Shown here piece after piece: positions 4,080-26,231 of a stretch of 26,231 nucleotides of DNA. Source of the stretch: a virus; the IMG/VR virus record IMGVR_UViG_3300027365_000053, positions 1 to 26,231 of that record. One strand, given 5' to 3'. Each line of letters starts with the position of its first letter. Within the stretch, counting starts at the first letter, position 1. Below the pieces are notes generated by a model. It made no database searches. It worked only from the letters and a program-made list of their open reading frames with translations, and was not told where the DNA came from. The position numbers and the translations under genes are program-made.

Positions 4080-6410
4080 ATGCAGCGAGACACCAGTAGT
4101 CGGGTCCGTCGCATGAACCTGGATGCGCTGGATACAGCTCCTCGGGTACAAACCACGGTCACCAACCAGAACGTACAGATTGATCGTGGCGATCCTGGAG
4201 CCCCGTACAAGGCTCTCTCGTCCTCCCTGTCGAACTTTTTCAACAAGGGAGCCAACATGCTTCTGGAGAAGCAGCAGGCCGAAACTGAGGCCGAGATACG
4301 CTTACAGGAGCAGAAAGCCAAGGAGGCAGCGTTCGAGGCTTACACGGAGTTCGCCGCGTTCAAGGAATCAGAATGGGACCCGGATACCCAGGACTTGGGA
4401 GAAGAAGCCAGTCGTATCTTCACTGAGAAGTTCGGTGAGGAACTGTCCGGCTACTCTGTGTTCGATCAGACGCTGCAGCAGTCCTTCGACGCGATGACCC
4501 GCCAGGACATCGTTCAGGGCAGAGTCTTCCAGGCGCAGCGTCAAGTGAAGAAACTCTCTAGTGACCTGTCGACCGACATCCAGCATAGCTTCGCGGACCC
4601 GGCTCTGCGGGGTGACGTGAGTTCTGAGGACATCATCGGCTGGGCCAAGCAGATCAGGGAAATTGATAAGTCCCTAACTGATGGTGAGGCCTATGCGTAC
4701 GTCTTCAAGAATCTGTATGACGGAGCCTCTGCCGGTGGCGGGGCAGCTGTCGCACGGTTCTCCAAAGTGTTGAGCGAAGTGCCTGTCGACGAGCGGGGCA
4801 ATACGTTTGCCCGCCTGTTCCCCGGTCAGGCTCGGAAGCTGCTCACCTCGCTTACCGCTGATGTCCTGAACAAGGCAACCATCGGCACCCGAGAGTTTGC
4901 CGCCCAGGCCGCGAACAAAGCGGATATGTTGGCTGGTCAGCAGGATGTGGACGGTCTGATCGACTTGATGGGTGACCTGTCGGCTCACGTTTCAGCCAAC
5001 GGCGGGGAGTCTGCTATCGGCCCTGTACGTGAGCGGATCAGTAAACACCTTCAGCAAATCTACGCCCGAGAAACCACGATCAAGAATATCCACGAACTTG
5101 GGCAAGACCCGAGCGTTGTGTCGAATCTGAGTAATGATCAGCTGAATGACCACGTCGGGGACTACCTCAAGCGAACCGGAATGCACGACCTCAAGTCTCT
5201 CGACAGTGAGCGTATCGTTCAGCTCTCCGGGTTCCTGGATAACGTCCAACAAGGTCGTGGTTACCTGCCGGAATCGGTGACCTCCTGGTTCACCACGGCG
5301 GTGGCCCGCGCTGACGATCCCATGGTCATGCAGAACGCGCTCATGCTGGCTGACTCCCTGTCTCCCCAGGCCCGGAAAGAGCTGTTCAAGGGGAACGAAT
5401 ACGTCTCCTCAGTGTTGAACGCTTACCGGGACATGAAGGAGTCCGGGGTGGCTAACGCACAGCAATACGTTCGGGAGTTCCTGGAAGACCCGCAGCTGGC
5501 CCAGCGGTACAAAGACTTCAGCTGGGAAAGCTATGAGGTCGAGAACTTCCAGGAGATTCTGGACGACGACCCAATCAGTCCGTTCACCGGGAATGCGGCT
5601 GACGAGATCGTTTCCTACCTGAACGCGGAAGGCGTGGTCGATGACGTTGACGCATGGTCCGACGTACGGCTCACCCCTGCGGCTGCTGACCGGATCGAGA
5701 AGGCGATGAAGCTGCGGGTGCTTCTCCATGAGAAGACCAATGGTTTCGCCTCACGCAGCACCATCACGGACATCCGTAACACGGTCGTCCGGGAACTAGC
5801 GAGAGATGGTCTGGCTGCTCGGAAGGTTAAGGCCGGGGGTTTGATCTCTGCGGATGAATGGGTGATCGACACCTATAACCCGAAACCCACGAACTGGGGC
5901 GGGAAGGATAACTACCTGACTGCCTACGACGACTTCGGTCGGCAGGAGATTCGGGCTCCTCACGTTAACGCAGAGGTGACCAACCCCGCTGGCGTACGGG
6001 AGAACCCTGTGCAGAACCTGCAGATGGCTCTGGACGAGCTTCCTGATTACCTTGAGGGGTTTGACTCGGAGATCATCGGTAAGGAAGTACCGAATGATCC
6101 GACCGGAGCTTTCATGGTTCATCACCAGTATGACGCCGGTATGCCTACCGTTCCGTTCTACATGCAGCCTGGGTACGCCTATGAAATCAACGGACAGGAG
6201 ATTGTCATCCCCGAAGACCTCACGGAGGAGAGTCTGAAACCTTTGGCGGACCTACTGCCCAAGGGTGTCTATCCAGAAGTCGATGAGTTTGGAGGCGGGG
6301 TGAATCTCCTCGTCTATCCACATTATCGAGGTATGGATGACTTCAAGAATATGGAAGCTCTTAAAGCTGGTCCGAAGGAATTGGGCCGACCAGACCGGCA
6401 AGGTCTGTAA
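4080..6410 (+). CDS. 15: Internal virion protein C (T7 gp15-like)
   Basis: A 776-residue, largely helical protein (T7 gp15 is 747), third in the internal core/ejectosome set 14-15-16. In T7, gp15 forms the periplasmic tunnel together with gp16. I chose the ATG at 4080 because it follows AAAGGAGG by 5 nt and lies immediately after the gene 14 stop; the frame is open farther upstream to a TTG at 4020, which would overlap gene 14. No membrane segment or enzymatic motif is visible. The C-terminus (about 74 nt of coding sequence) overlaps the proposed start of the next gene. Confidence 0.88.
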   Translation: MQRDTSSRVRRMNLDALDTAPRVQTTVTNQNVQIDRGDPGAPYKALSSSLSNFFNKGANMLLEKQQAETEAEIRLQEQKAKEAAFEAYTEFAAFKESEWDPDTQDLGEEASRIFTEKFGEELSGYSVFDQTLQQSFDAMTRQDIVQGRVFQAQRQVKKLSSDLSTDIQHSFADPALRGDVSSEDIIGWAKQIREIDKSLTDGEAYAYVFKNLYDGASAGGGAAVARFSKVLSEVPVDERGNTFARLFPGQARKLLTSLTADVLNKATIGTREFAAQAANKADMLAGQQDVDGLIDLMGDLSAHVSANGGESAIGPVRERISKHLQQIYARETTIKNIHELGQDPSVVSNLSNDQLNDHVGDYLKRTGMHDLKSLDSERIVQLSGFLDNVQQGRGYLPESVTSWFTTAVARADDPMVMQNALMLADSLSPQARKELFKGNEYVSSVLNAYRDMKESGVANAQQYVREFLEDPQLAQRYKDFSWESYEVENFQEILDDDPISPFTGNAADEIVSYLNAEGVVDDVDAWSDVRLTPAAADRIEKAMKLRVLLHEKTNGFASRSTITDIRNTVVRELARDGLAARKVKAGGLISADEWVIDTYNPKPTNWGGKDNYLTAYDDFGRQEIRAPHVNAEVTNPAGVRENPVQNLQMALDELPDYLEGFDSEIIGKEVPNDPTGAFMVHHQYDAGMPTVPFYMQPGYAYEINGQEIVIPEDLTEESLKPLADLLPKGVYPEVDEFGGGVNLLVYPHYRGMDDFKNMEALKAGPKELGRPDRQGL

Positions 6411-7233
6411 ACGGTGGGGGCTCTGTGCCCTCACCTACTCCATCATCTTCTCCCTTCTCCTGATCACCGGAGTGCATCACAGCATGGAAGTGAAAGCCCA
6501 AGAGGCCGTTCCGTACAATGCGGAGGCCCTTAACTCTATGCGTCGTCTGTACGAGCGTCAGGGCATGATCTCCTCCACAAAGAATCTCACTACGTTTGAG
6601 AACGTGCAGGATTATGAAGACCCGTCCAAGTACGTTGACGACTTGTATCACGAAGCTGCTGAACGGCATGGCTGGAGCGTCCACGATACAAAGGATCGCG
6701 CCTATAAGCAGGAACGGTTCGAGTTCATTAGTGGTCTGGAAGGCTACCGCCGACAGGTCTACAAGGACACGAAGGGCATCGCCACGATTGGCTACGGCTT
6801 TAACCTTGAAGACCCGGCGAACCGTCGGTTGGCGAAGAATGTCCTGAATATTAACGACTCAGAGTACAGCAAGTTGGTGACGGGCAAGCGTTCAATCAGT
6901 AAGGACGAAGCGCAGGTTCTGTTCGACGCTGCTGTAGCTGAAGCCGAAAAGCAGGTCCGCTCGAAAACCAAAGGTCTGAAGCTCTCCAAGCATGAGCATC
7001 TGGCCCTGGTGTCGATGGCCTACAACAACCCCTCCCTGCTGGGCCGCGACCTCATGAAGGCGCTCAAACAGAAGGACCGCGAAGCAGCGATCCACGAAAT
7101 CCTCTACAAGTCCAACCGCTCGAAATCCGAAGGGCTGGCGCACCGCCGTTACATGGAAGCCTCCATGTTCGTCGGAATGTCAGACGCAAAGTCTGTCCTG
7201 CCGCCGCTTGAGGATTACATGAGCAATTATTGA
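6337..7233 (+). CDS. Lysozyme-fold (GH24, T4-lysozyme type) muramidase with N-terminal signal/anchor; endolysin or virion lysozyme
   Basis: Residues about 127-290 form a phage lysozyme domain: FEFISGLEGYRRQVYKDTKG then IATIGYG. Numbered from this start, the catalytic triad is Glu135, Asp144 and Thr150, with spacings of 9 and 6 identical to T4 lysozyme Glu11/Asp20/Thr26. The C-terminal GLAHRRYMEASMF matches the GH24 GL..RR..E pattern. The enzyme should cleave the MurNAc-GlcNAc bond of peptidoglycan. From ATG 6337 (GAGG at 6328-6331) the N-terminus is basic and then hydrophobic (LCALTYSIIFSLLLITGV, residues 29-46), followed by VKA-QEA, a possible signal-peptidase site. This suggests export as a signal-peptide or signal-anchor endolysin. 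The alternative start ATG 6484 removes that segment and avoids the overlap with gene 15; it would fit an internal virion enzyme. The domain is certain; the start and role are not. Confidence 0.85.
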   Translation: MTSRIWKLLKLVRRNWADQTGKVCKRWGLCALTYSIIFSLLLITGVHHSMEVKAQEAVPYNAEALNSMRRLYERQGMISSTKNLTTFENVQDYEDPSKYVDDLYHEAAERHGWSVHDTKDRAYKQERFEFISGLEGYRRQVYKDTKGIATIGYGFNLEDPANRRLAKNVLNINDSEYSKLVTGKRSISKDEAQVLFDAAVAEAEKQVRSKTKGLKLSKHEHLALVSMAYNNPSLLGRDLMKALKQKDREAAIHEILYKSNRSKSEGLAHRRYMEASMFVGMSDAKSVLPPLEDYMSNY

Positions 7234-16015: not shown

Positions 16016-17887
16016 ATGCTTCAGCCCCTCAAGATCGAGGGGCGTCCTCACTGGGAGTCCTGGGTGGAGCCCGAGCTGTGGCCCATCTTCGAGGACTTCC
16101 GTAATTTCCTGGCCGTTCTGTGGAACCACCTGGGGCTCCCTGAGCCTACTCCAGCGCAGTATGAGATCGCCCATAGGCTTCAGTATGGGTATGACTCTGC
16201 GGAGGCCCTGGAGCTGCCACAGGAGCTTCTGGAGGCATTCGAGTACGAGCCCCGAGAGGATATCGTACGGTGCTTCCGGTCCCTCGGTAAGTCCTACATC
16301 ACGTCTGGCTTTGTGACCTGGCGATTGATGAGGAACCCACGGGACGAGAAGGTCCTGGTTGTCTCAGCTTCAGGCAGTAAGGCCAAGGAGTTCGTAGCGC
16401 AGACCAAGGGGGTGATGGCCTCCATGGAAATCTGCAAGTGGCTCCTGGACGGTGACCGTGAGAAAGGCGCGACCCGACGTGACCAAGCGGATCAGTTCGA
16501 CGTCGCCTACGGCTCACTCTCACAGTCCTACTCAGTGGCAGCGCGAGGTATCACCGGTCAGATCACCGGTAGTCGTGCCACGTTGCTGGTTGCTGACGAT
16601 ATCGAGATCGAGAAGAACTCCCTCACTGAGGACGCCCGACAGCGTATCCTGCGGACGGTACAGTCCGACTTCGTACCCATCACCAAGACCGAACACGGTA
16701 AAGGCGACATCATCTTCCTGGGCACTCCCCAGACTGAGGAGTCCGTCTACAACGTGCTGGTCAAGCAGATGGGCTTCCGCTGTATCTGTATCCCGGTCAA
16801 GTACCCGAAGGCAGACAAGCGGAAGAACTACATCCTGACTCGGGATGAAGATGGCCAGCAGATCGACATCCTGGCCCCCTACCTGAAAAAACAGTTCGAC
16901 GACGGAGAGATCGGCTACGACGATCCGACCGACACACGTTTTGGCCGTGACGAACTGATCAAGATCGAATCGAAAGGCCGTGCGACCTTCGCTCTGCAGT
17001 ACATGCTGGACACCTCACTGTCCGATGCCGAGCGGTATCCCCTCAAGCAGCACGACCTGATCGTAATGTCCCTCAACCCGGAGAAAGCTCCGCTGACCCT
17101 GCAATGGGGTAAGGATTCCGATAGGAAGAACGTCATCGACGATATCCCAAACGTGGGCTTCACTGGTGACCACTTCCTGCGCCCGCTGTTCGCTGACACC
17201 GAATGGGCTCCGTATGACGCCCGGACTCTCTTTGTGGACCCTGCCGGTCGAGGCAAAGACGAGACAGCCTGGGCCATCATGTCCTCCCTCGGCGGCACGT
17301 TGTTCCTGCACAAGGTTGGAGGCTACAAGGGTGATCCTGCCGAGGCCATGGAGAAGATCGCCCTGGACGCCAAGAACTACAAGGTGAACATCGTGGAGGT
17401 CGAACCGAACTTCGGACAGGGAATGTGGGTGACGTCCTTTGGTCCGATCCTGCAGCGTGTGTGGCCAGGAGGTTGCACCGTACAGGAATCACCCTGGGCC
17501 AAAGGGATGAAGGAATCCAGAATCATCGACACCCTTGAGCCAGTCATGACGCAGCACCGTCTGGTCTTCGACGAGACTCTCATCAGGTCTGACGTGAAGG
17601 CTGACGATCCGGTCTATTCACTCATGTATCAGCTGACACACATCGCCAATGAGCGTGGGTGCCTGAAGCATGACGACCGGTTGGACGCTGTGGCAGGCGT
17701 AGTGGCTCACTTCATGCGGACCATGGCGCAGGACTCTGTGTCTCACCGTCAGGCTTACCTGGATGAACAGATGGAAGCTGAGATCGAGGACTTCTACGAG
17801 ATGTTCGAGCAGTCCCCCATCGGGTTCCGTCGTCGAGGTAAACGCAGAGACGGAGAACGGAATGAAGTCTTGATGTGGTCTGTCTGA
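16016..17887 (+). CDS. 19: Large terminase subunit, ATPase-nuclease (T7 gp19-like)
   Basis: A 623-residue protein (T7 gp19 is 586). Domains: N-terminal ATPase with a variant P-loop RCFRSLGKSYIT (residues 85-96), Walker B ATLLVADD (188-195) and coupling motif IIFLGTPQT (232-240); C-terminal RNase-H-type nuclease with acidic residues in LFVDPAGRGKDETAWA (Asp408, Asp415), the EVEPNFGQGMW segment (461-471) and KHDDRLDAVAGVV (551-563). It drives DNA into the prohead and cuts the concatemer. The start ATG at 16016 follows AGGAAG. This is the last late gene; the packaging junction should follow it. Confidence 0.95.
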   Translation: MLQPLKIEGRPHWESWVEPELWPIFEDFRNFLAVLWNHLGLPEPTPAQYEIAHRLQYGYDSAEALELPQELLEAFEYEPREDIVRCFRSLGKSYITSGFVTWRLMRNPRDEKVLVVSASGSKAKEFVAQTKGVMASMEICKWLLDGDREKGATRRDQADQFDVAYGSLSQSYSVAARGITGQITGSRATLLVADDIEIEKNSLTEDARQRILRTVQSDFVPITKTEHGKGDIIFLGTPQTEESVYNVLVKQMGFRCICIPVKYPKADKRKNYILTRDEDGQQIDILAPYLKKQFDDGEIGYDDPTDTRFGRDELIKIESKGRATFALQYMLDTSLSDAERYPLKQHDLIVMSLNPEKAPLTLQWGKDSDRKNVIDDIPNVGFTGDHFLRPLFADTEWAPYDARTLFVDPAGRGKDETAWAIMSSLGGTLFLHKVGGYKGDPAEAMEKIALDAKNYKVNIVEVEPNFGQGMWVTSFGPILQRVWPGGCTVQESPWAKGMKESRIIDTLEPVMTQHRLVFDETLIRSDVKADDPVYSLMYQLTHIANERGCLKHDDRLDAVAGVVAHFMRTMAQDSVSHRQAYLDEQMEAEIEDFYEMFEQSPIGFRRRGKRRDGERNEVLMWSV

Positions 17888-18542: not shown

Positions 18543-18590
18543 CGAAAAGTACAGCAAGGGGTTGACTCAAGGCGACTGAATCGCTATAGT
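18543..18590 (+). promoter_or_regulatory. Early promoter P1 with 20-nt element copy 1
   Basis: Element AAGTACAGCAAGGGGTTGAC (18547-18566) ends in a -35 box TTGACT (18562-18567); 17 nt later is -10 TATAGT (18585-18590). This is a good sigma70 promoter. The 24-nt block starting CGAAAAG is identical in P2, exactly 150 bp downstream, and both -10 boxes run into AGTTCGCCC. By position these are the equivalents of the T7 A1-A3 host-polymerase promoters. Confidence 0.85.
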
Positions 18591-18692: not shown

Positions 18693-18740
18693 CGAAAAGT
18701 ACAGCAAGGGGTTGACAAGGGGTAAAGCAACTGTTAAAGT
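18693..18740 (+). promoter_or_regulatory. Early promoter P2 with 20-nt element copy 2
   Basis: Element copy at 18697-18716 is identical to copy 1. The -35 is TTGACA (18712-18717), spacer 17 nt, -10 TAAAGT (18735-18740). A near-duplicate of P1, evidently produced by duplication of about 150 bp with divergence in between. Confidence 0.85.
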
Positions 18741-18865: not shown

Positions 18866-18904
18866 GATCCGGCAAGACTGGTAGGTAACGCAACGGTCAA
18901 ACCC

Positions 18905-18963
18905 GAGTACAGCAAGTTAATGACTAGCGAGGGGTTGACAAGCAAAACATAATCTGGTTCAAT
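18905..18963 (+). promoter_or_regulatory. Early promoter P3 (weaker) with 20-nt element copy 3
   Basis: Element GAGTACAGCAAGTTAATGAC at 18905-18924 is followed by a second GGGGTTGACA; -35 TTGACA at 18935-18940 with a 17-nt spacer gives TTCAAT (18958-18963), a mediocre -10. Unlike P1/P2 the element and the -35 box are separate here, so a protein bound to the element would sit just upstream of the polymerase. Confidence 0.65.
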
Positions 18964-19200: not shown

Positions 19201-19205
19201 ACTCA

Positions 19206-19225
19206 AAGTACAGTAACTTGTTGAC
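19206..19225 (+). promoter_or_regulatory. 20-nt element copy 4, before the first early gene
   Basis: AAGTACAGTAACTTGTTGAC, immediately followed by the Shine-Dalgarno (GAGGTGAT) and ATG of the Gp88-like gene. No -10 box at a workable distance, so it is not a complete sigma70 promoter. The surrounding 24 nt (19205-19228) are identical to copy 5. Confidence 0.75.
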
Positions 19226-19235
19226 GAGGTGATCT

Positions 19236-20012
19236 ATGACTAAGAAAGAATTGGTCAATATCGCCAGACAGTACGGGTGCGCCTCACTGTTAGGCGTGGA
19301 CACCAACGCAAAGACCGTCAAAGGGCAAAAGCAACGGTATCTGACAGGAATCCTGTACATGATGCCTGATGACAAGCTCTGCCCAATGTCCATCAAAGCG
19401 GGCTGTCGTGAGGCCTGCTTAGTGTCTGCCGGTCGAGCTGCCTTTACGCCGGGAATCGGTCAGGTACGCGCTGCCCGTACACGGTTCTTTCATCAGGATC
19501 GTGAACACTTCATGGCGCTGCTGCTGACTGAAATCCGGGCGCTGGTACGCAAGGCCCAACGCAAAGGCATGACACCTGCAGTGCGCCTGAACGGCACCAG
19601 TGATGTGAACTGGGCCAATGTCACTTATCAGGGTCTGTCCGTCTTTGAGCATTTCCCGGAGGTGCAGTTTTACGACTACACCAAAAGTCCGTCCATCGTG
19701 CGGGCTGCTGCCGGTGAATCGAACTGGACCGTAACGGCTTCCTATAGCGAGGCCAGCGTTCAGTACGCAATGCTCATCAAAGCGGCTGCTGACAAGTACG
19801 GGGCGAACCTGGCAGTGGTGTTTCGGGATGGAAATCTGCCTGAAACCTTCATGGGTCGTCCGGTCATTAACGGGGATGAAACCGACCTGCGGTTCCTCGA
19901 CAAGCAAGGCGTGATCGTGGGCCTGAAGGCCAAAGGTCAGGCCAAAAAGGATAAAACCGGGTTCGTGGTCGATGCTGCCCTGCTCGGGGACCGTCTGATC
20001 GCTGCGGCGTAA
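19236..20012 (+). CDS. Gp88-family phage protein, first early gene
   Basis: A 258-residue protein. Recognisable blocks are a cysteine cluster LCPMSIKAGCREACLVSAGR (Cys49, Cys57, Cys61), AVRLNGTSDVNW (about 115-126) and VQFYDYTKSP (about 143-152). These are typical of the 'gene product 88' family found in mycobacteriophages and many other phages and plasmids. The family has no established biochemical function; the clustered cysteines could bind a metal. It has GAGGTGAT before the ATG and is the first gene behind the early promoters, the position where T7 encodes its anti-restriction protein 0.3, so a host-takeover or counter-defence role is a fair inference only. Confidence 0.75.
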   Translation: MTKKELVNIARQYGCASLLGVDTNAKTVKGQKQRYLTGILYMMPDDKLCPMSIKAGCREACLVSAGRAAFTPGIGQVRAARTRFFHQDREHFMALLLTEIRALVRKAQRKGMTPAVRLNGTSDVNWANVTYQGLSVFEHFPEVQFYDYTKSPSIVRAAAGESNWTVTASYSEASVQYAMLIKAAADKYGANLAVVFRDGNLPETFMGRPVINGDETDLRFLDKQGVIVGLKAKGQAKKDKTGFVVDAALLGDRLIAAA

Positions 20013-20031
20013 AGTACAGTAACTTGTTGAC
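20012..20031 (+). promoter_or_regulatory. 20-nt element copy 5, overlapping the Gp88 gene stop
   Basis: AAGTACAGTAACTTGTTGAC, identical to copy 4 and starting within the TAA stop of the Gp88-like gene. About 70 nt of leader follow before the next ATG, with no -10 at 16-18 nt. Placement at a gene end in the direction of transcription fits a roadblock-type site better than a promoter. Confidence 0.75.
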
Positions 20032-20099
20032 GAGTGGCTATCCTCTGGCGTCCCTGCGGGGCGTCACGGGATGTTCACACGCAACGATGGAGAACAGTC

Positions 20100-22478: not shown

Positions 22479-22894
22479 AGGTCGAAGTATTCCGCAACCT
22501 GCGGAAGAACTGCTTCTCTGTCCGGGCTCTCGAAGGCGAGAACAAGGGCAAGGTGATCCTGCATACCGACGCTGTCTTGCTGAAGGACGTGGAGTTCCGC
22601 GTCCAGCAAGGCGGTCAGGCTCGGGTCCGCCGGGAGCGCAAGAAGTATGTCCATGCGTTTGTCCGGGGAGAAATCCGGGCGGTATCTTCCTTCGCGGCCA
22701 ACACGCTGAAGGGTCTGGCCAAGTCCAGGAACATTCGGATGAATCAGTTTGCGTACAACCCGTACGAAAACGACACGTTCATCGACCGGCACCTGAGAGT
22801 CCCTCTCGCGTCCTCTGATTGGGCTGTTCTTGGGGTCAATGGTAACTGGTACATCAACGAAGTTAACGCCGCTGAGCAGCGTCTCAGCGCCTGA
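22475..22894 (+). CDS. Conserved phage/plasmid protein of unknown function, 139 aa
   Basis: Start ATG 22475 overlaps the previous stop. The sequence KVEVFRNLRKNCFSVRALEG, KVILHTDAVLLKDVEFRVQQ, GGQARVRRERKKYVHAFVRG matches a family I recall from many phages and plasmids (N-terminal K..RNL, central R..R.....VHA.V.G); no function is established. It is basic, which would suit nucleic-acid contact. It is the last gene of the coupled early operon. Confidence 0.72.
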   Translation: MKVEVFRNLRKNCFSVRALEGENKGKVILHTDAVLLKDVEFRVQQGGQARVRRERKKYVHAFVRGEIRAVSSFAANTLKGLAKSRNIRMNQFAYNPYENDTFIDRHLRVPLASSDWAVLGVNGNWYINEVNAAEQRLSA

Positions 22895-23105
22895 GAGTAC
22901 AGTGAGTTATTGATATGGACGAACTTACTATTTGTGAGACTGCCAGCAGGGACACCGGAGTCCCTCTGGCGGACGTTCTTCTGCTCATTTCTTGCTCACT
23001 TTAATCCTTAACAACTTGTAATTATTTAAACGCTTGTTTTATAGGTAGCAGTCCGTATATTACGGCTACGTGACGCTGCCGATTGCATGAATGGAGGATA
23101 AGTTC
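22895..23105 (+). promoter_or_regulatory. Intergenic region with 20-nt element copy 6 (22895-22914) and AT-rich promoter-like stretch
   Basis: GAGTACAGTGAGTTATTGAT at 22895-22914 overlaps nothing coding and starts at the preceding stop. A 29-codon frame (22915-23004) follows without a ribosome site and is probably not a gene. A GGGAC/GTCCC hairpin lies near 22948-22964. At 23016-23050 an AT-rich stretch with TTGTAA, 17 nt and TTATAG could be a weak promoter for the next gene. Confidence 0.5.
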
Positions 23106-23441: not shown

Positions 23442-23447
23442 TCGTCT

Positions 23448-23469
23448 GGGCATAAGGGCTGCAAAAGGT
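23448..23469 (-). repeat. Inverted partial copy of the 34-nt module-border repeat
   Basis: GGGCATAAGGGC, three variable bases, then AAAAGGT: the reverse complement of the right and middle parts of the repeats at 23593 and 25628. With the copy at 23593 it forms an inverted repeat enclosing the 37-aa gene. The three variable bases fall at the same place in all three copies. Confidence 0.75.
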
Positions 23470-23601: not shown

Positions 23602-23626
23602 CACCTTTTTGAGCCCTTATGCCCAA
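23593..23626 (+). repeat. 34-nt module-border repeat, copy 1
   Basis: CAGGGGTGACACCTTTTT, two variable bases, GCCCTTATGCCCAA. 32 of 34 positions are identical to 25628-25661. It contains the stop codon of the 37-aa gene. The pair brackets the regulator-ORF-integrase module. Confidence 0.85.
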
Positions 23627-23678: not shown

Positions 23679-23719
23679 ACTAACATAATGTTTGTCTTTG
23701 GGTCTGCCTCCCACTATCA

Positions 23720-23739
23720 TAGTCCAGTGAGTTATTGAC
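23720..23739 (+). promoter_or_regulatory. 20-nt element copy 7, upstream of the XRE regulator
   Basis: TAGTCCAGTGAGTTATTGAC; shares CAGTGAGTTATTGA with copy 6. A TTGACA is present but no -10 at 16-18 nt. It is 72 nt before the regulator start, where an autoregulatory site would be expected. Confidence 0.7.
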
Positions 23740-23810
23740 ACTTGAGTTACAGTGCAGCCCAACGTTCTCCGATGGAGAAACGCTCGGGCAAGAGTTTAAG
23801 GGAGACAGCT

Positions 23811-24158
23811 ATGTCTACTAGATTGACCGCCGACAGGACGTCAGTTGATTCAAAAGCGCGGAGGAAGCGCGCAGGGATGGTTCTCAAGCAACTGAGAGCA
23901 AAGGCAGGATACACACAGAAAGAGCTGGCACAGAAGGCTGGCTTGGAGTATTACACTTTCATCTCCCAGATCGAGAACGGAAGTGGTCGTGTCCCTGTTG
24001 AACTGTACGGTGAGTTCGCCCAGGCCTACGGTGTGGATGTCGAGAAGTTTGCCCGAATGATGGTCCGACTGTATGACCCGGCGCTCTACAACTGGCTGTT
24101 CTATAACTCTCGGGATGTTGATGAGGACCAACAACTGTTGGAACTGATGAACTCGTGA
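23811..24158 (+). CDS. XRE-family helix-turn-helix regulator, candidate lysogeny repressor
   Basis: A 115-residue protein. Residues about 24-76 form a HTH_3 domain: LKQLRAKAGYTQKELAQKAG, then LEYYTFISQIENGSGRVPVE, with the recognition helix near 46-54. The C-terminal 40 residues have no LexA/CI-type protease, so RecA-triggered self-cleavage is not expected. I start at ATG 23811 (AAGGGAGA upstream); the frame is open back to 23742. It lies two genes before integrase, the normal place for a lysogeny regulator. It could also be an early regulator or antitoxin-like protein. Confidence 0.8.
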   Translation: MSTRLTADRTSVDSKARRKRAGMVLKQLRAKAGYTQKELAQKAGLEYYTFISQIENGSGRVPVELYGEFAQAYGVDVEKFARMMVRLYDPALYNWLFYNSRDVDEDQQLLELMNS

Positions 24159-24165
24159 GGAAGGA

Positions 24166-24522
24166 ATGATTGGTTATACACTCGATCTGATTAACAACAT
24201 CAACCAAGACATCCTGTTCACCGCCTGCTTTGGGGCGTTGAGCCGGGTCACTCACTGCTCTGTTGAGCTGTCAGATGTGTGTACGACCGACGAAGGAGAC
24301 TTCTATCAGGTAGGCGAACTACCTTTCTGTAGTGTCACTGTGTCCGTCGTAACGAACAACGATAACAACCAACTTCAGGTATTCGTAACGCCCCTGTCGG
24401 GCTCACTCGAAGACATGGGCAAGGTGGAGGACTGGCTTGGCTTGCTCAAGAGGGAGCATACCAAAGTCATCCAGGATTATTTGCTGGAGGATCAGGGCTA
24501 TGAGCGTATTCAAACGGCCTAA
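24166..24522 (+). CDS. Unknown 118-aa protein between regulator and integrase
   Basis: Start ATG preceded by GAGGAAGGA directly after the regulator stop; its last 23 nt overlap the integrase start, so the three genes are co-transcribed. Acidic, four cysteines in the first half, no membrane segment. Not recognised. By context it may modulate the regulator (antirepressor-like) or assist excision, but it has no HTH typical of excisionases. Confidence 0.7.
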   Translation: MIGYTLDLINNINQDILFTACFGALSRVTHCSVELSDVCTTDEGDFYQVGELPFCSVTVSVVTNNDNNQLQVFVTPLSGSLEDMGKVEDWLGLLKREHTKVIQDYLLEDQGYERIQTA

Positions 24523-25636
24523 CTCAAAACATTACTACATGCAGGTTCCCGATGGTAAGGGAGGCGTTAAGCGCCTCTCTACCAAACGGACCACAAAACG
24601 TGAGGCCGAGCAGGTCAAAGCGGCGTACCTCAAGGAACTGCAGGACCGCCAGCAGCTCGGCGTTAAGTCTACCATCAAACTACAGCAACTAGCTGACGAG
24701 TTTATCGAGTACAAGAAGTCAGAGAACTTGGACTCGATTGACAAGATCGAACATCACATTAACAAGCTGATCGGTGGCGGGAAGTGGGGCCGGGAGGTCT
24801 ACCACCTCGACCCTGACATGGAAGCCCATGAGCTAACCGTCCGGGACATCGACAAGTACAAACAGGCTCGTCTGCGTGAAGGTCGAGCCCGAAAGACAAT
24901 CAACCTGGAACTCGAACAGCTGCGCGGAATGCACAAGTACGCTGTCAGCCGTGGGTACAAGGCGAACTTCCGTCTGGAAATCCCCATGTTCAAAGTGAGG
25001 GGCAAGTCTCGCTGGCTCAGTCATGAGGAGGAGGAAGCCCTGCTCCGTGAGCTGGACCCTAAGCGTGAGGCTCCGGGCATGGCCAAGTATGAGGACCGGG
25101 AAGGTTCTGTCCTTCAGGCCAAGCTGCAGGACCAGCACGACATGACCGTCGTTCTGTTGGACACCGGCAAGAGGTACATGGAGATCGCCTCCATGCCGTG
25201 GTACTCAGTGGATACCAGGAACTGGCAGTGGATCGAGGTCTATCAGGAGAAGACTGATGATTGGGGCAGATTCCCCATGACAAAGCGCCTGAGAGCCGTC
25301 CTGAAGCGTCGTTGGGAGAACCGTAGGTCACCCCAGTGGGTCTTCCCTTCTTTCATCGACAAGAAGAAGCACAGGGCCTACAGCACGAAAGGTTTGAAGA
25401 ACGCCATCGAACGGGCGGGACTGAACTCTGACCCTGAACTGGTTCGTCGTCGGGGCCGGGTCACTCCGCATACGTTGCGTGATACCTTCGCCTCCAAACT
25501 GGTGCAACGGAACGTCAGTCTCAAGACAGTCCAGACCCTGCTCGGTCACAAGTCAGGAGCGTCCACTCAGAAGTACGCACACCTGCAGCTGACCGACGCT
25601 GCGAACGCTGCCGTGGCGGCGCTCGAACAGGGGTGA
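24500..25636 (+). CDS. int: Tyrosine-family phage integrase
   Basis: A 378-residue protein. I use ATG 24500 with GGAGG 9 nt upstream; the frame is open to 24437 but that part overlaps the previous gene. N-terminal arm-binding domain (about 1-50: YYMQVPDGKGGVKRLSTKRT), SAM-like core-binding domain (about 58-160), catalytic domain with the full set: Arg225 (TGKRYMEIASM), Lys251, His324 and Arg327 (HTLRDTF), His350 (LLGHKSG) and the nucleophile Tyr359 (STQKYAH). It recombines attP with the tRNA-Lys attB lying about 440 bp downstream. The final codons lie in the 34-nt repeat. Confidence 0.95.
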   Translation: MSVFKRPNSKHYYMQVPDGKGGVKRLSTKRTTKREAEQVKAAYLKELQDRQQLGVKSTIKLQQLADEFIEYKKSENLDSIDKIEHHINKLIGGGKWGREVYHLDPDMEAHELTVRDIDKYKQARLREGRARKTINLELEQLRGMHKYAVSRGYKANFRLEIPMFKVRGKSRWLSHEEEEALLRELDPKREAPGMAKYEDREGSVLQAKLQDQHDMTVVLLDTGKRYMEIASMPWYSVDTRNWQWIEVYQEKTDDWGRFPMTKRLRAVLKRRWENRRSPQWVFPSFIDKKKHRAYSTKGLKNAIERAGLNSDPELVRRRGRVTPHTLRDTFASKLVQRNVSLKTVQTLLGHKSGASTQKYAHLQLTDAANAAVAALEQG

Positions 25637-25661
25637 CACCTTTTTACGCCCTTATGCCCAA
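25628..25661 (+). repeat. 34-nt module-border repeat, copy 2 (integrase 3' end)
   Basis: Same sequence as 23593-23626 except two central bases (AC instead of GA). It includes the integrase stop codon. No resemblance to the tRNA-Lys sequence, so it is not the attachment core; integrase arm sites, or the scar of module acquisition, are the main options. Confidence 0.85.
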
Positions 25662-25681: not shown

Positions 25682-25707
25682 GCCCTGCCCTTCGGCGGGG
25701 CTTTTTT
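25682..25707 (+). terminator. Strong rho-independent terminator after integrase
   Basis: An 8-bp stem GCCCTGCC/GGCGGGGC (one G-U), CTTC loop, then six T. It should end most transcripts that run through the early and lysogeny genes. Confidence 0.95.
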
Positions 25708-25726: not shown

Positions 25727-25933
25727 ATGTTGCGATTGATCGCCACACCTTTCCGTTGGATCGGCAACCACCTCGCCGCTCGTCTCGTCGCCTTGCTGGT
25801 GATCGGAGCGTCACCGCTGATGGTGGTTCAGGATTTCTTTGAAGGGCAGCGAATGGATAAGGACTACTGGTCAAGCGTACTGGAGGTCCTGGGGAACTGC
25901 CTGGACCTGATCCTGGTTGGCCGTACGCTGTGA
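25727..25933 (+). CDS. Small membrane protein, 68 aa, last gene before the attachment site
   Basis: ATG preceded by GCGGAGGATTCC. One or possibly two hydrophobic segments (LAARLVALLVIGASPLMVV, about 17-35; VLEVLGNCLDLILVG, about 51-65) separated by charged residues. Not recognised. It lies beyond the integrase terminator yet before att, so in the lysogen it may be expressed from little or no promoter, or by read-through; lysogenic-conversion or exclusion proteins often sit here. Confidence 0.65.
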   Translation: MLRLIATPFRWIGNHLAARLVALLVIGASPLMVVQDFFEGQRMDKDYWSSVLEVLGNCLDLILVGRTL

Positions 25934-25975
25934 GGTACAGTAAGTGTTTAACTAGTTAGTTACACTGTGTACAGT
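25933..25975 (+). promoter_or_regulatory. 20-nt element copy 8 with candidate promoter reading toward att
   Basis: Element AGGTACAGTAAGTGTTTAAC at 25933-25952, ending in -35-like TTTAAC; 17 nt later TACAGT (25970-25975) is a fair -10. In the phage genome this would read across attP into the next early gene (expected to be the phage RNA polymerase); in the lysogen it points into the tRNA antisense strand. Confidence 0.5.
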
Positions 25976-25994
25976 CAGGCTGAAAAGGTTAGTG

Positions 25995-26011
25995 ACAAAA
26001 CCGTGTACACC
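25995..26011 (+). repeat. 17-nt repeat copy 2 (GTGTAC boxes) next to att
   Basis: ACAAAACCGTGTACACC, an exact repeat of 18417-18433. Another GTGTAC lies at 25967-25972. The cluster of GTGTAC boxes about 70-110 bp from the tRNA end is where integrase arm-type sites would be expected. Confidence 0.65.
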
Positions 26012-26031
26012 GGGGATGAACTTTATGAGGG

Positions 26032-26067
26032 CAAAAAGAAGGGGGACCGGTAAGTACCTGATCCCCC
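26032..26067 (-). terminator. Rho-independent terminator for the tRNA-Lys transcript
   Basis: On the minus strand GGGGGA...TCCCCC (arms 26062-26067 and 26041-26046) with an inner GGTA/TACC, followed by TTCTTTTT. It lies just downstream of the tRNA 3' end, on the prophage side of the junction, so it is likely phage-supplied and replaces the host terminator displaced by integration. Confidence 0.75.
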
Positions 26068-26077
26068 TGCTAAATAA

Positions 26078-26122
26078 TGGTGGGTCGTCGGCGACTCGAA
26101 CGCCGGACCAATTGGTTAAAAG
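26078..26122. other. Probable attR core: 3' half of tRNA-Lys
   Basis: Phages with tyrosine integrases commonly recombine in the anticodon-to-3' end part of a tRNA gene and restore it. Here the tRNA 3' end faces the integrase and lies at the boundary between phage and non-phage sequence. The left copy (attL) is outside the window, so the exact core cannot be fixed. Confidence 0.6.
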
Positions 26123-26153
26123 CCAACTGCTCTACCAACTGAGCTAACGACCC
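26078..26153 (-). tRNA. tRNA-Lys (anticodon UUU)
   Basis: A 76-nt cloverleaf on the minus strand: acceptor GGGTCGT/ACGACCC, D arm GCTCAGTTGGTAGAGC, anticodon stem-loop with CTTTTAA loop (anticodon TTT, bases 26120-26118), T arm with GTTCGAG, encoded CCA at 26080-26078. It is intact, as expected when the phage restores the gene end. Confidence 0.97.
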
Positions 26154-26231
26154 AAACGAGGCGCATATAGTAATGAATTTTTTGGGCTGTTCAACCCCTT
26201 TATTCACTTTCTTGTCACTTTTTTTGATCTC
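26154..26231 (-). promoter_or_regulatory. Host flank with tRNA-Lys promoter
   Basis: On the minus strand TTGAAC (26194-26189) with 17 nt to ACTATA (26171-26166), or 19 nt to TATATG, ahead of the tRNA. AT-rich and without any gene; this is the only host DNA visible in the window. Confidence 0.5.

Follow-up and report, generated by a model that had tools for sequence, protein, structure and literature searches.

How temperate T7-like phages stay dormant while carrying an autonomous RNA polymerase (RNAP) is an open question, and an earlier note on the locus described here had proposed that integration itself switches off the RNAP gene and, with it, all late genes. Relocation of RNAP may indeed help to keep the virus dormant. 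If integration opened the transcriptional loop supplying RNAP, perfect repression would not be indispensable for lysogeny, and induction would need excision first. The clade of this phage offers a conserved arrangement across several different tRNA targets.

The DNA analyzed, hereafter the window, is the whole IMG/VR record IMGVR_UViG_3300027365_000053 (26,231 bp; such records may be fragments or chimeric) and represents the right-hand side of a T7-like prophage. From left to right it contains genes for the capsid (partial, at the 5′ edge), tail tube, nozzle, internal core proteins, fibre, lysis and terminase, followed by a 6 kb early region, an XRE-type repressor, an integrase, an ORF of 68 aa and tRNA-Lys. 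The nozzle protein matched PF25675 in Pfam (E 1.4e-148), which together with the PF22530 terminase is a T7-type feature. Megablast of the window against phages gave no match, and comparison of the integrase with genome and viral contigs yielded only a weak partial match from Nocardioides that was set aside. The genes on which the argument depends are:

16016–17887, plus strand: large terminase gene (TerL, T7 type), the last late gene before the early region (PF22530, E 6.5e-33; relatives 56–94% identical)
23811–24158, plus strand: putative repressor gene of the XRE family (HTH_3; PF01381, E 1e-9; homologues with 41–52% identity stand beside the integrase gene in relatives)
24166–24522, plus strand: ORF of 118 aa between the repressor and integrase genes, no Pfam match
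24500–25636, plus strand: tyrosine integrase gene (PF00589, E 2.9e-24)
25727–25933, plus strand: ORF68, a small ORF between the integrase gene and attR, with small ORFs at the equivalent place in relatives

The repressor ORF opens at 23742, and 23811 was chosen as its start. The gene is intact and lies 1.9 kb from the tRNA; in relatives it is likewise separate from attP. The 26,231 bp contain no RNAP gene and the left prophage end is also outside the record, so the proposal about RNAP was tested on relatives: a gene for a single-subunit RNAP, absent from this 26-kb fragment, was present in all relatives of at least 28 kb that were found through TerL.

That the late genes lie to the left of the early promoters was confirmed, as TerL ends at 17887 and strong sigma-70 promoters were found at 18562, 18712 and 18935, with scores of 12.5–15.2 on a matrix whose approximate frequencies were entered from general knowledge. 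These promoters overlap or adjoin copies of a directional 20-bp motif, AGTACAGyrAnnttrTTGAC, which occurs in eight early intergenic copies, all on the plus strand (23.6–29.1 bits, with a matrix built from these same eight copies):

18546–18590, plus strand: copy 1, overlapping the strong sigma-70 promoter TTGACT-17-TATAGT (score 12.5–13.1, 0/300 shuffles)
18696–18740, plus strand: copy 2, overlapping the strong sigma-70 promoter TTGACA-17-TAAAGT (score 14.8–15.2, 0/300 shuffles)
18904–18963, plus strand: copy 3 and the adjoining strong sigma-70 promoter TTGACA-17-TTCAAT at 18935 (score 12.7–14.2, 0/300 shuffles)
19205–19228, plus strand: motif copy (AGTACAGtAAcTTgTTGAC) with an ORF start 8 bp downstream; putative operator of the XRE repressor (29.1 bits; no usable -10)
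20011–20034, plus strand: motif copy, putative operator (29.1 bits)
22894–22917, plus strand: motif copy, putative operator (25.2 bits)
23719–23742, plus strand: motif copy upstream of the repressor gene (24.5 bits)
25932–25955, plus strand: copy 8 (23.6 bits as motif), sigma-70 match at chance (p 0.21)

Two more matches, at 6862 and 24678, lie inside coding sequence. Many asymmetric sites in one orientation within short intergenic spaces, as in the eight plus-strand copies of the window, resemble the stoperators of L5-type phages, and binding by the repressor with a stop of elongation, as in those systems, would be a putative function here; the analysis covered the co-occurrence of motif and repressor gene. 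It is improbable, in our view, that the repeats, copy 8 among them, serve as arm sites for the integrase, which would make copy 8 a part of attP with no bearing on transcription. Copies do stand on both sides of attP in relatives, and several GTACAG/CTGTAC elements cluster to the left of the window tRNA; however, the copies reach up to 7.5 kb from attP, precede early genes and keep a single orientation. Since L163 and L164 carry the 20-bp motif right after RNAP, we also considered it as a promoter for the phage RNAP, a reading made less likely by the relatives without a repressor, which lack this motif but retain the CCTTATGCC-type one.

Copy 8 had been described as carrying a -35/-10 pair that reads over attP. 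It is a genuine instance of the motif. The TTTAAC-17-TACAGT pair in it, however, scored only 6.9–7.3, which 21% of shuffled versions of the 153-bp sequence also reached, and the reading of copy 8 as a promoter over attP is thus unsupported. With the same scoring, the mapped promoters P1 and P2 of phage LUZ100 reached 13.3 and the weak but active P3 only 6.1, showing that weak promoters can look like chance; a weak promoter may exist at copy 8.

Further to the right, the proximity of the integrase gene to tRNA-Lys(TTT) was borne out, with ORF68 and copy 8 between them, and the end of the window contains the following elements:

25682–25707, plus strand: intrinsic terminator after the integrase gene (8-bp stem, -16.9 kcal/mol, z -4.0, T6 tail)
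26041–26069, minus strand: intrinsic terminator ending the tRNA-Lys transcript and located on the phage side of the junction (-20.3 kcal/mol, z -4.0; tail CUUCUUUUU confined to the minus strand)
26078–26153, minus strand: intact tRNA-Lys(TTT) (ARAGORN), its 3′ half being the expected attachment core (attR), as relatives have only a tRNA 3′ half at attP
26154–26231, minus strand: probable host flank with the tRNA-type promoter TTGAAC-16-TACTAT, 13 bp before the tRNA (score 8.5, p 0.064)

Because the tRNA-Lys is complete and has a tRNA-like promoter on its own strand (p 0.064), the rightmost 78 bp are probably host DNA and the window probably stems from an integrated T7-like prophage, of which it forms the right end, with tRNA-Lys marking attR. 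Alternatively, the contig might not be integrated, tRNA-Lys being a complete phage-borne tRNA at attP and the record stopping before RNAP. LUZ100 and phage Pasto carry complete antisense tRNA-Leu genes near the integrase gene, and the record does stop 78 bp beyond the tRNA; however, in close relatives the tRNA at attP is reduced to its 3′ half, whereas the window tRNA is complete and the tRNA-type promoter upstream of it has a GC-rich discriminator, which makes this alternative very improbable. The conclusion about topology would be unchanged even then. A search of viral contigs for the exact 3′ half of tRNA-Lys gave no match.

The earlier note had further placed a terminator opposite a copy 8 promoter in the lysogen. 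This part does not hold: the T-run of the hairpin at 26041–26069 is on the minus strand only, so the hairpin ends the tRNA-Lys transcript and is no intrinsic terminator in the rightward direction. Transcription proceeding to the right from copy 8 would cross the tRNA in antisense direction without meeting an intrinsic terminator. The prophage thus apparently supplies an intrinsic terminator for the tRNA gene that it uses as integration site. The terminator at 25682–25707, in turn, faces early transcription and is located upstream of copy 8. In the free phage, this strong terminator separates the early promoters from attP, so that RNAP would be reached by read-through alone even in the absence of integration.

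Motif comparison revealed a second directional motif of 24 bp, CCTwmTGCCnA, that is common to the window and its relatives. Its sites are found upstream of the repressor gene, around the integrase gene, directly after RNAP, in the middle region and before the capsid operon, positions that suggest promoters of the phage RNAP. As both motif matrices were scored partly on sequences used to build them, the bit scores of the three copies in this part of the window are to be read accordingly:

23446–23469, minus strand: second copy of the putative phage-RNAP promoter, directed leftward, inverted partner of the next (19.7 bits)
23603–23626, plus strand: putative promoter for the phage RNAP (ACCTTTTTGAGCCCTTATGCCCAA), some 190 bp before the repressor gene and at an equivalent position in relatives (24.3 bits)
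25638–25661, plus strand: putative phage-RNAP promoter directly after the integrase gene, directed toward ORF68 and attP (23.2 bits), with an equivalent copy after the integrase gene in provirus G018

Within the late region, the only clear matches to the two motifs were a putative phage promoter at 6239–6262 (17.5 bits), which precedes a lysozyme-like gene, and the 20-bp motif at 6862–6881 (24.7 bits) inside this gene.

The relatives that complete the picture were collected by way of terminase homologues with 56–94% identity, from which contigs with integrase and RNAP genes were obtained, and more were added by RNAP searches. In ten free-form contigs (L058, L059, L063, L068, L069, L168, L172, L173, L178 and L179, with identical RNAP in L058 and L068) the order is XRE repressor, integrase, small ORF, antisense tRNA 3′ half (attP), about 100 bp and RNAP; the tRNA half is Met-like in eight of them and Pro-like in two. 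The permuted 44-kb contig G017 carries the whole series without interruption, from TerL through early genes, XRE repressor, integrase and attP to RNAP. Just as proposed, attP lies between the integrase gene and RNAP in every free-form repressor-bearing close relative with a recognisable tRNA-type attP. The window itself shows the integrase gene, whereas its adjacency to the downstream RNAP gene in free genomes was seen in the relatives; the missing half of this prophage would have the same order. Repressor gene and recognisable attP also co-occur, both being present in G010, G014–G017, L172, L173, L178 and L179 and both absent from G003, G005, G007, G009, G011 and G013 (region read), where absence refers to HTH_3 searches for the repressor and, for attP, to a T-arm pattern blind to attachment sites of other kinds. 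Two of these six relatives without tRNA-type attP, G005 and G013, had no integrase match. An RNAP match from Shinella was left out, since there the integrase gene is 3 kb downstream of RNAP, which is a different arrangement. Upstream of RNAP in L163 (2590–2680) and L164 (100–190), an inverted pair of DnaA-box-like elements (ATCCACAGG...CCTGTGGAT) was found, and no recognisable tRNA half.

Transcripts of six free-form attP regions are predicted to fold into a long hairpin (z -2.9 to -6.3) that encloses the core; its arms are perfect inverted repeats of 12–13 bp and lineage-specific sequence in L172 (4717–4801), L178 (2996–3091) and L179 (5718–5813). The hairpin was absent from the one attL examined (L073, z -1.45), and integration would split its two arms.

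The position of RNAP after integration can be read from proviruses. In the 50-kb provirus G010, RNAP comes directly after a tRNA-His 3′ half, which itself lies next to a host ORF of opposite orientation, and the integrase gene is located at 48.8–50.0 kb. G018 and G019 are trimmed provirus records that start exactly at the RNAP start; the integrase gene is the last gene in G019, and in G018 about 1.3 kb of small genes lie beyond it. The prediction that the left prophage end would consist of a tRNA 3′ fragment followed by RNAP therefore holds for G010 and its gene order fits G018 and G019, but the left end of the prophage in the window is outside the record. From these genome comparisons, attP in the free phage is placed between the integrase gene and RNAP, an order well supported in relatives, and integration relocates RNAP across the prophage, tens of kb away from the early promoters.

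The free phage would thus read, in circular order, terminase, strong host promoters, early genes, XRE repressor, integrase, small ORF, attP, RNAP, and replication and late genes. To reach the RNAP gene, host RNA polymerase from the early promoters would have to traverse attP, as would phage RNAP initiating at its own promoters near the repressor and integrase genes. Integration at the tRNA would cut the genome at attP and bring RNAP to the opposite end, just inside attL and behind the tRNA 3′ half, where it would lie without a strong promoter. In the lysogen, the repressor and integrase genes would stay on the side of the early promoters, the known routes to RNAP would be lost, and excision would restore them. 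The repressor probably binds operators before RNAP in addition, so that topology and repression would act jointly, and that the two together keep RNAP silent in the lysogen is, in our judgment, the fairly probable explanation of the whole arrangement.

Sigma-70 scores in ten attP–RNAP gaps ranged from 4.7 to 10.1 (shuffle median 6.4, 95th percentile 9.9); only L178 exceeded the 95th percentile with a borderline promoter match (10.1), and the other nine of the ten gaps were at chance. Neither a strong host promoter nor a phage-type promoter was seen between attP and RNAP in the relatives, and no copy of the CCTwmTGCCnA motif. Hence, none of the findings that had been named as contradicting the proposal, an RNAP gene elsewhere or a strong promoter between attL and RNAP, was made in the relatives. 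A weak promoter may nevertheless reside in the gap.

On the RNAP side of attP, an operator-like ACAGTRA site was present in all close relatives, about 40–70 bp before the start codon, and in some of them formed part of a dyad, such as TTCACTG-16-CAGTGAA in L058 and GTTACTG-16-CAGTAAC in L172, the arms of which covary between lineages. The short motif GTACAGTRA/TACAGTRA had 25 plus-strand matches in eleven early regions with an XRE gene, compared to approximately 1.5 expected, and none on the plus strand of five early regions without XRE gene. ACAGTRA sites are therefore putative binding sites of the XRE repressor. G010 and G018 lack the short motif despite having repressors, so operators may differ there. 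The location of these sites makes it likely that RNAP is repressed directly as well, and they represent the main argument suggesting that topology is not the sole lock.

The same observations would fit a classical control, in which a weak host promoter between attP and RNAP is shut by the XRE repressor at ACAGTRA and the integration site is incidental, so that topology adds little. Besides the operator-like sites in all close relatives, the dyads of L058 and L172 and the tracking of motif and repressor, A-T-rich -10-like hexamers 8–9 bp before the operator point in this direction, and a similar model was proposed for the MarR phages (PMC10134795). However, the gap scores at chance in nine of ten relatives argue against it, and between L058 and L063 conservation extends to the operator arms but not to the -10-like hexamer. 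We consider this account on its own unlikely. The opposite extreme, for which we have slightly more sympathy but which we advance only tentatively, is that RNAP can be transcribed solely from promoters across attP, first those of the host and then those of the phage in a positive loop. Integration would open this loop, the lysogen would be silent through topology, excision would be obligatory before induction, and the attP hairpin may add a second integration-sensitive element.

Several known phages resemble this arrangement, which appears to be a variant of known temperate T7-like designs with a plausible but putative mechanism. Phage Pasto (MT708545) has an HTH regulator, integrase, terminator, antisense tRNA-Leu and RNAP in this order, and RNAP is across attP from the integrase gene if tRNA-Leu is the attachment site. 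In contrast to the roughly 100 bp and XRE repressor of the window clade, tRNA and RNAP of Pasto are about 0.8 kb apart, with a terminator and the gene of a membrane protein between them, and the regulator is of MarR type in the literature, where Pasto and LUZ100 make up a MarR-regulated group of temperate T7-like phages. The window regulator, upstream of the integrase gene as well, matched HTH_3/HTH_31 in Pfam instead of MarR. LUZ100 (OP329100; PMC10134795) shares early host promoters P1–P3, regulator, integrase, strong terminator after the integrase gene, small ORF and RNAP, which is thought to be reached by read-through (PMC10134795). It differs in having tRNA-Leu upstream of the integrase gene, the phage promoter phi1 directly before RNAP and a MarR regulator, and no stable lysogen was obtained (PMC10134795). 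Among T7-like cyanophages, P-SSP7 and S-TIP37 have attP downstream of the integrase gene, with RNAP next in P-SSP7; integration was shown experimentally and no stable lysogeny was found (PMC8776855). P-SSP7 differs by a fair sigma-70 match in the gap between the integrase gene and RNAP (10.9).

An effect of integration itself on the expression state has a precedent outside the T7-like phages. In the integration-dependent immunity of mycobacteriophages such as BPs (PMC4557955), the expression state changes through integration itself, and attP is located inside the repressor gene. The window clade, in contrast, keeps the repressor gene intact and relocates the gene of an activator, RNAP. In the literature covered, which was incomplete, we did not find relocation of RNAP stated as a switch.

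The RNAP genes themselves had some unusual features. RNAP of the window's clade has approximately 28% identity or less to the compared isolates. In G010 (L051:2527–5077) and G018 (L144:1–3575), it is split at a homologous place into two ORFs of about 270 and 568 aa, with a Bro-N-like ORF between the halves in G018. These are possibly natural two-subunit T7-like polymerases, for which we take the two-subunit RNAPII of phage N4 to be a parallel. In L163 (2771–5372) and L164 (297–2908), RNAP is split elsewhere, just before FRTRLYP (423–426 aa plus 439 aa), and the splits are in different relative frames, making a shared sequencing error unlikely. Finally, T7-like RNAP genes were also found in the plasmid records NZ_AP019656.1 and NZ_CP084403.1, 'plasmids' of 44–48 kb from Vibrio and Sphingobium that are possibly phage-plasmids.
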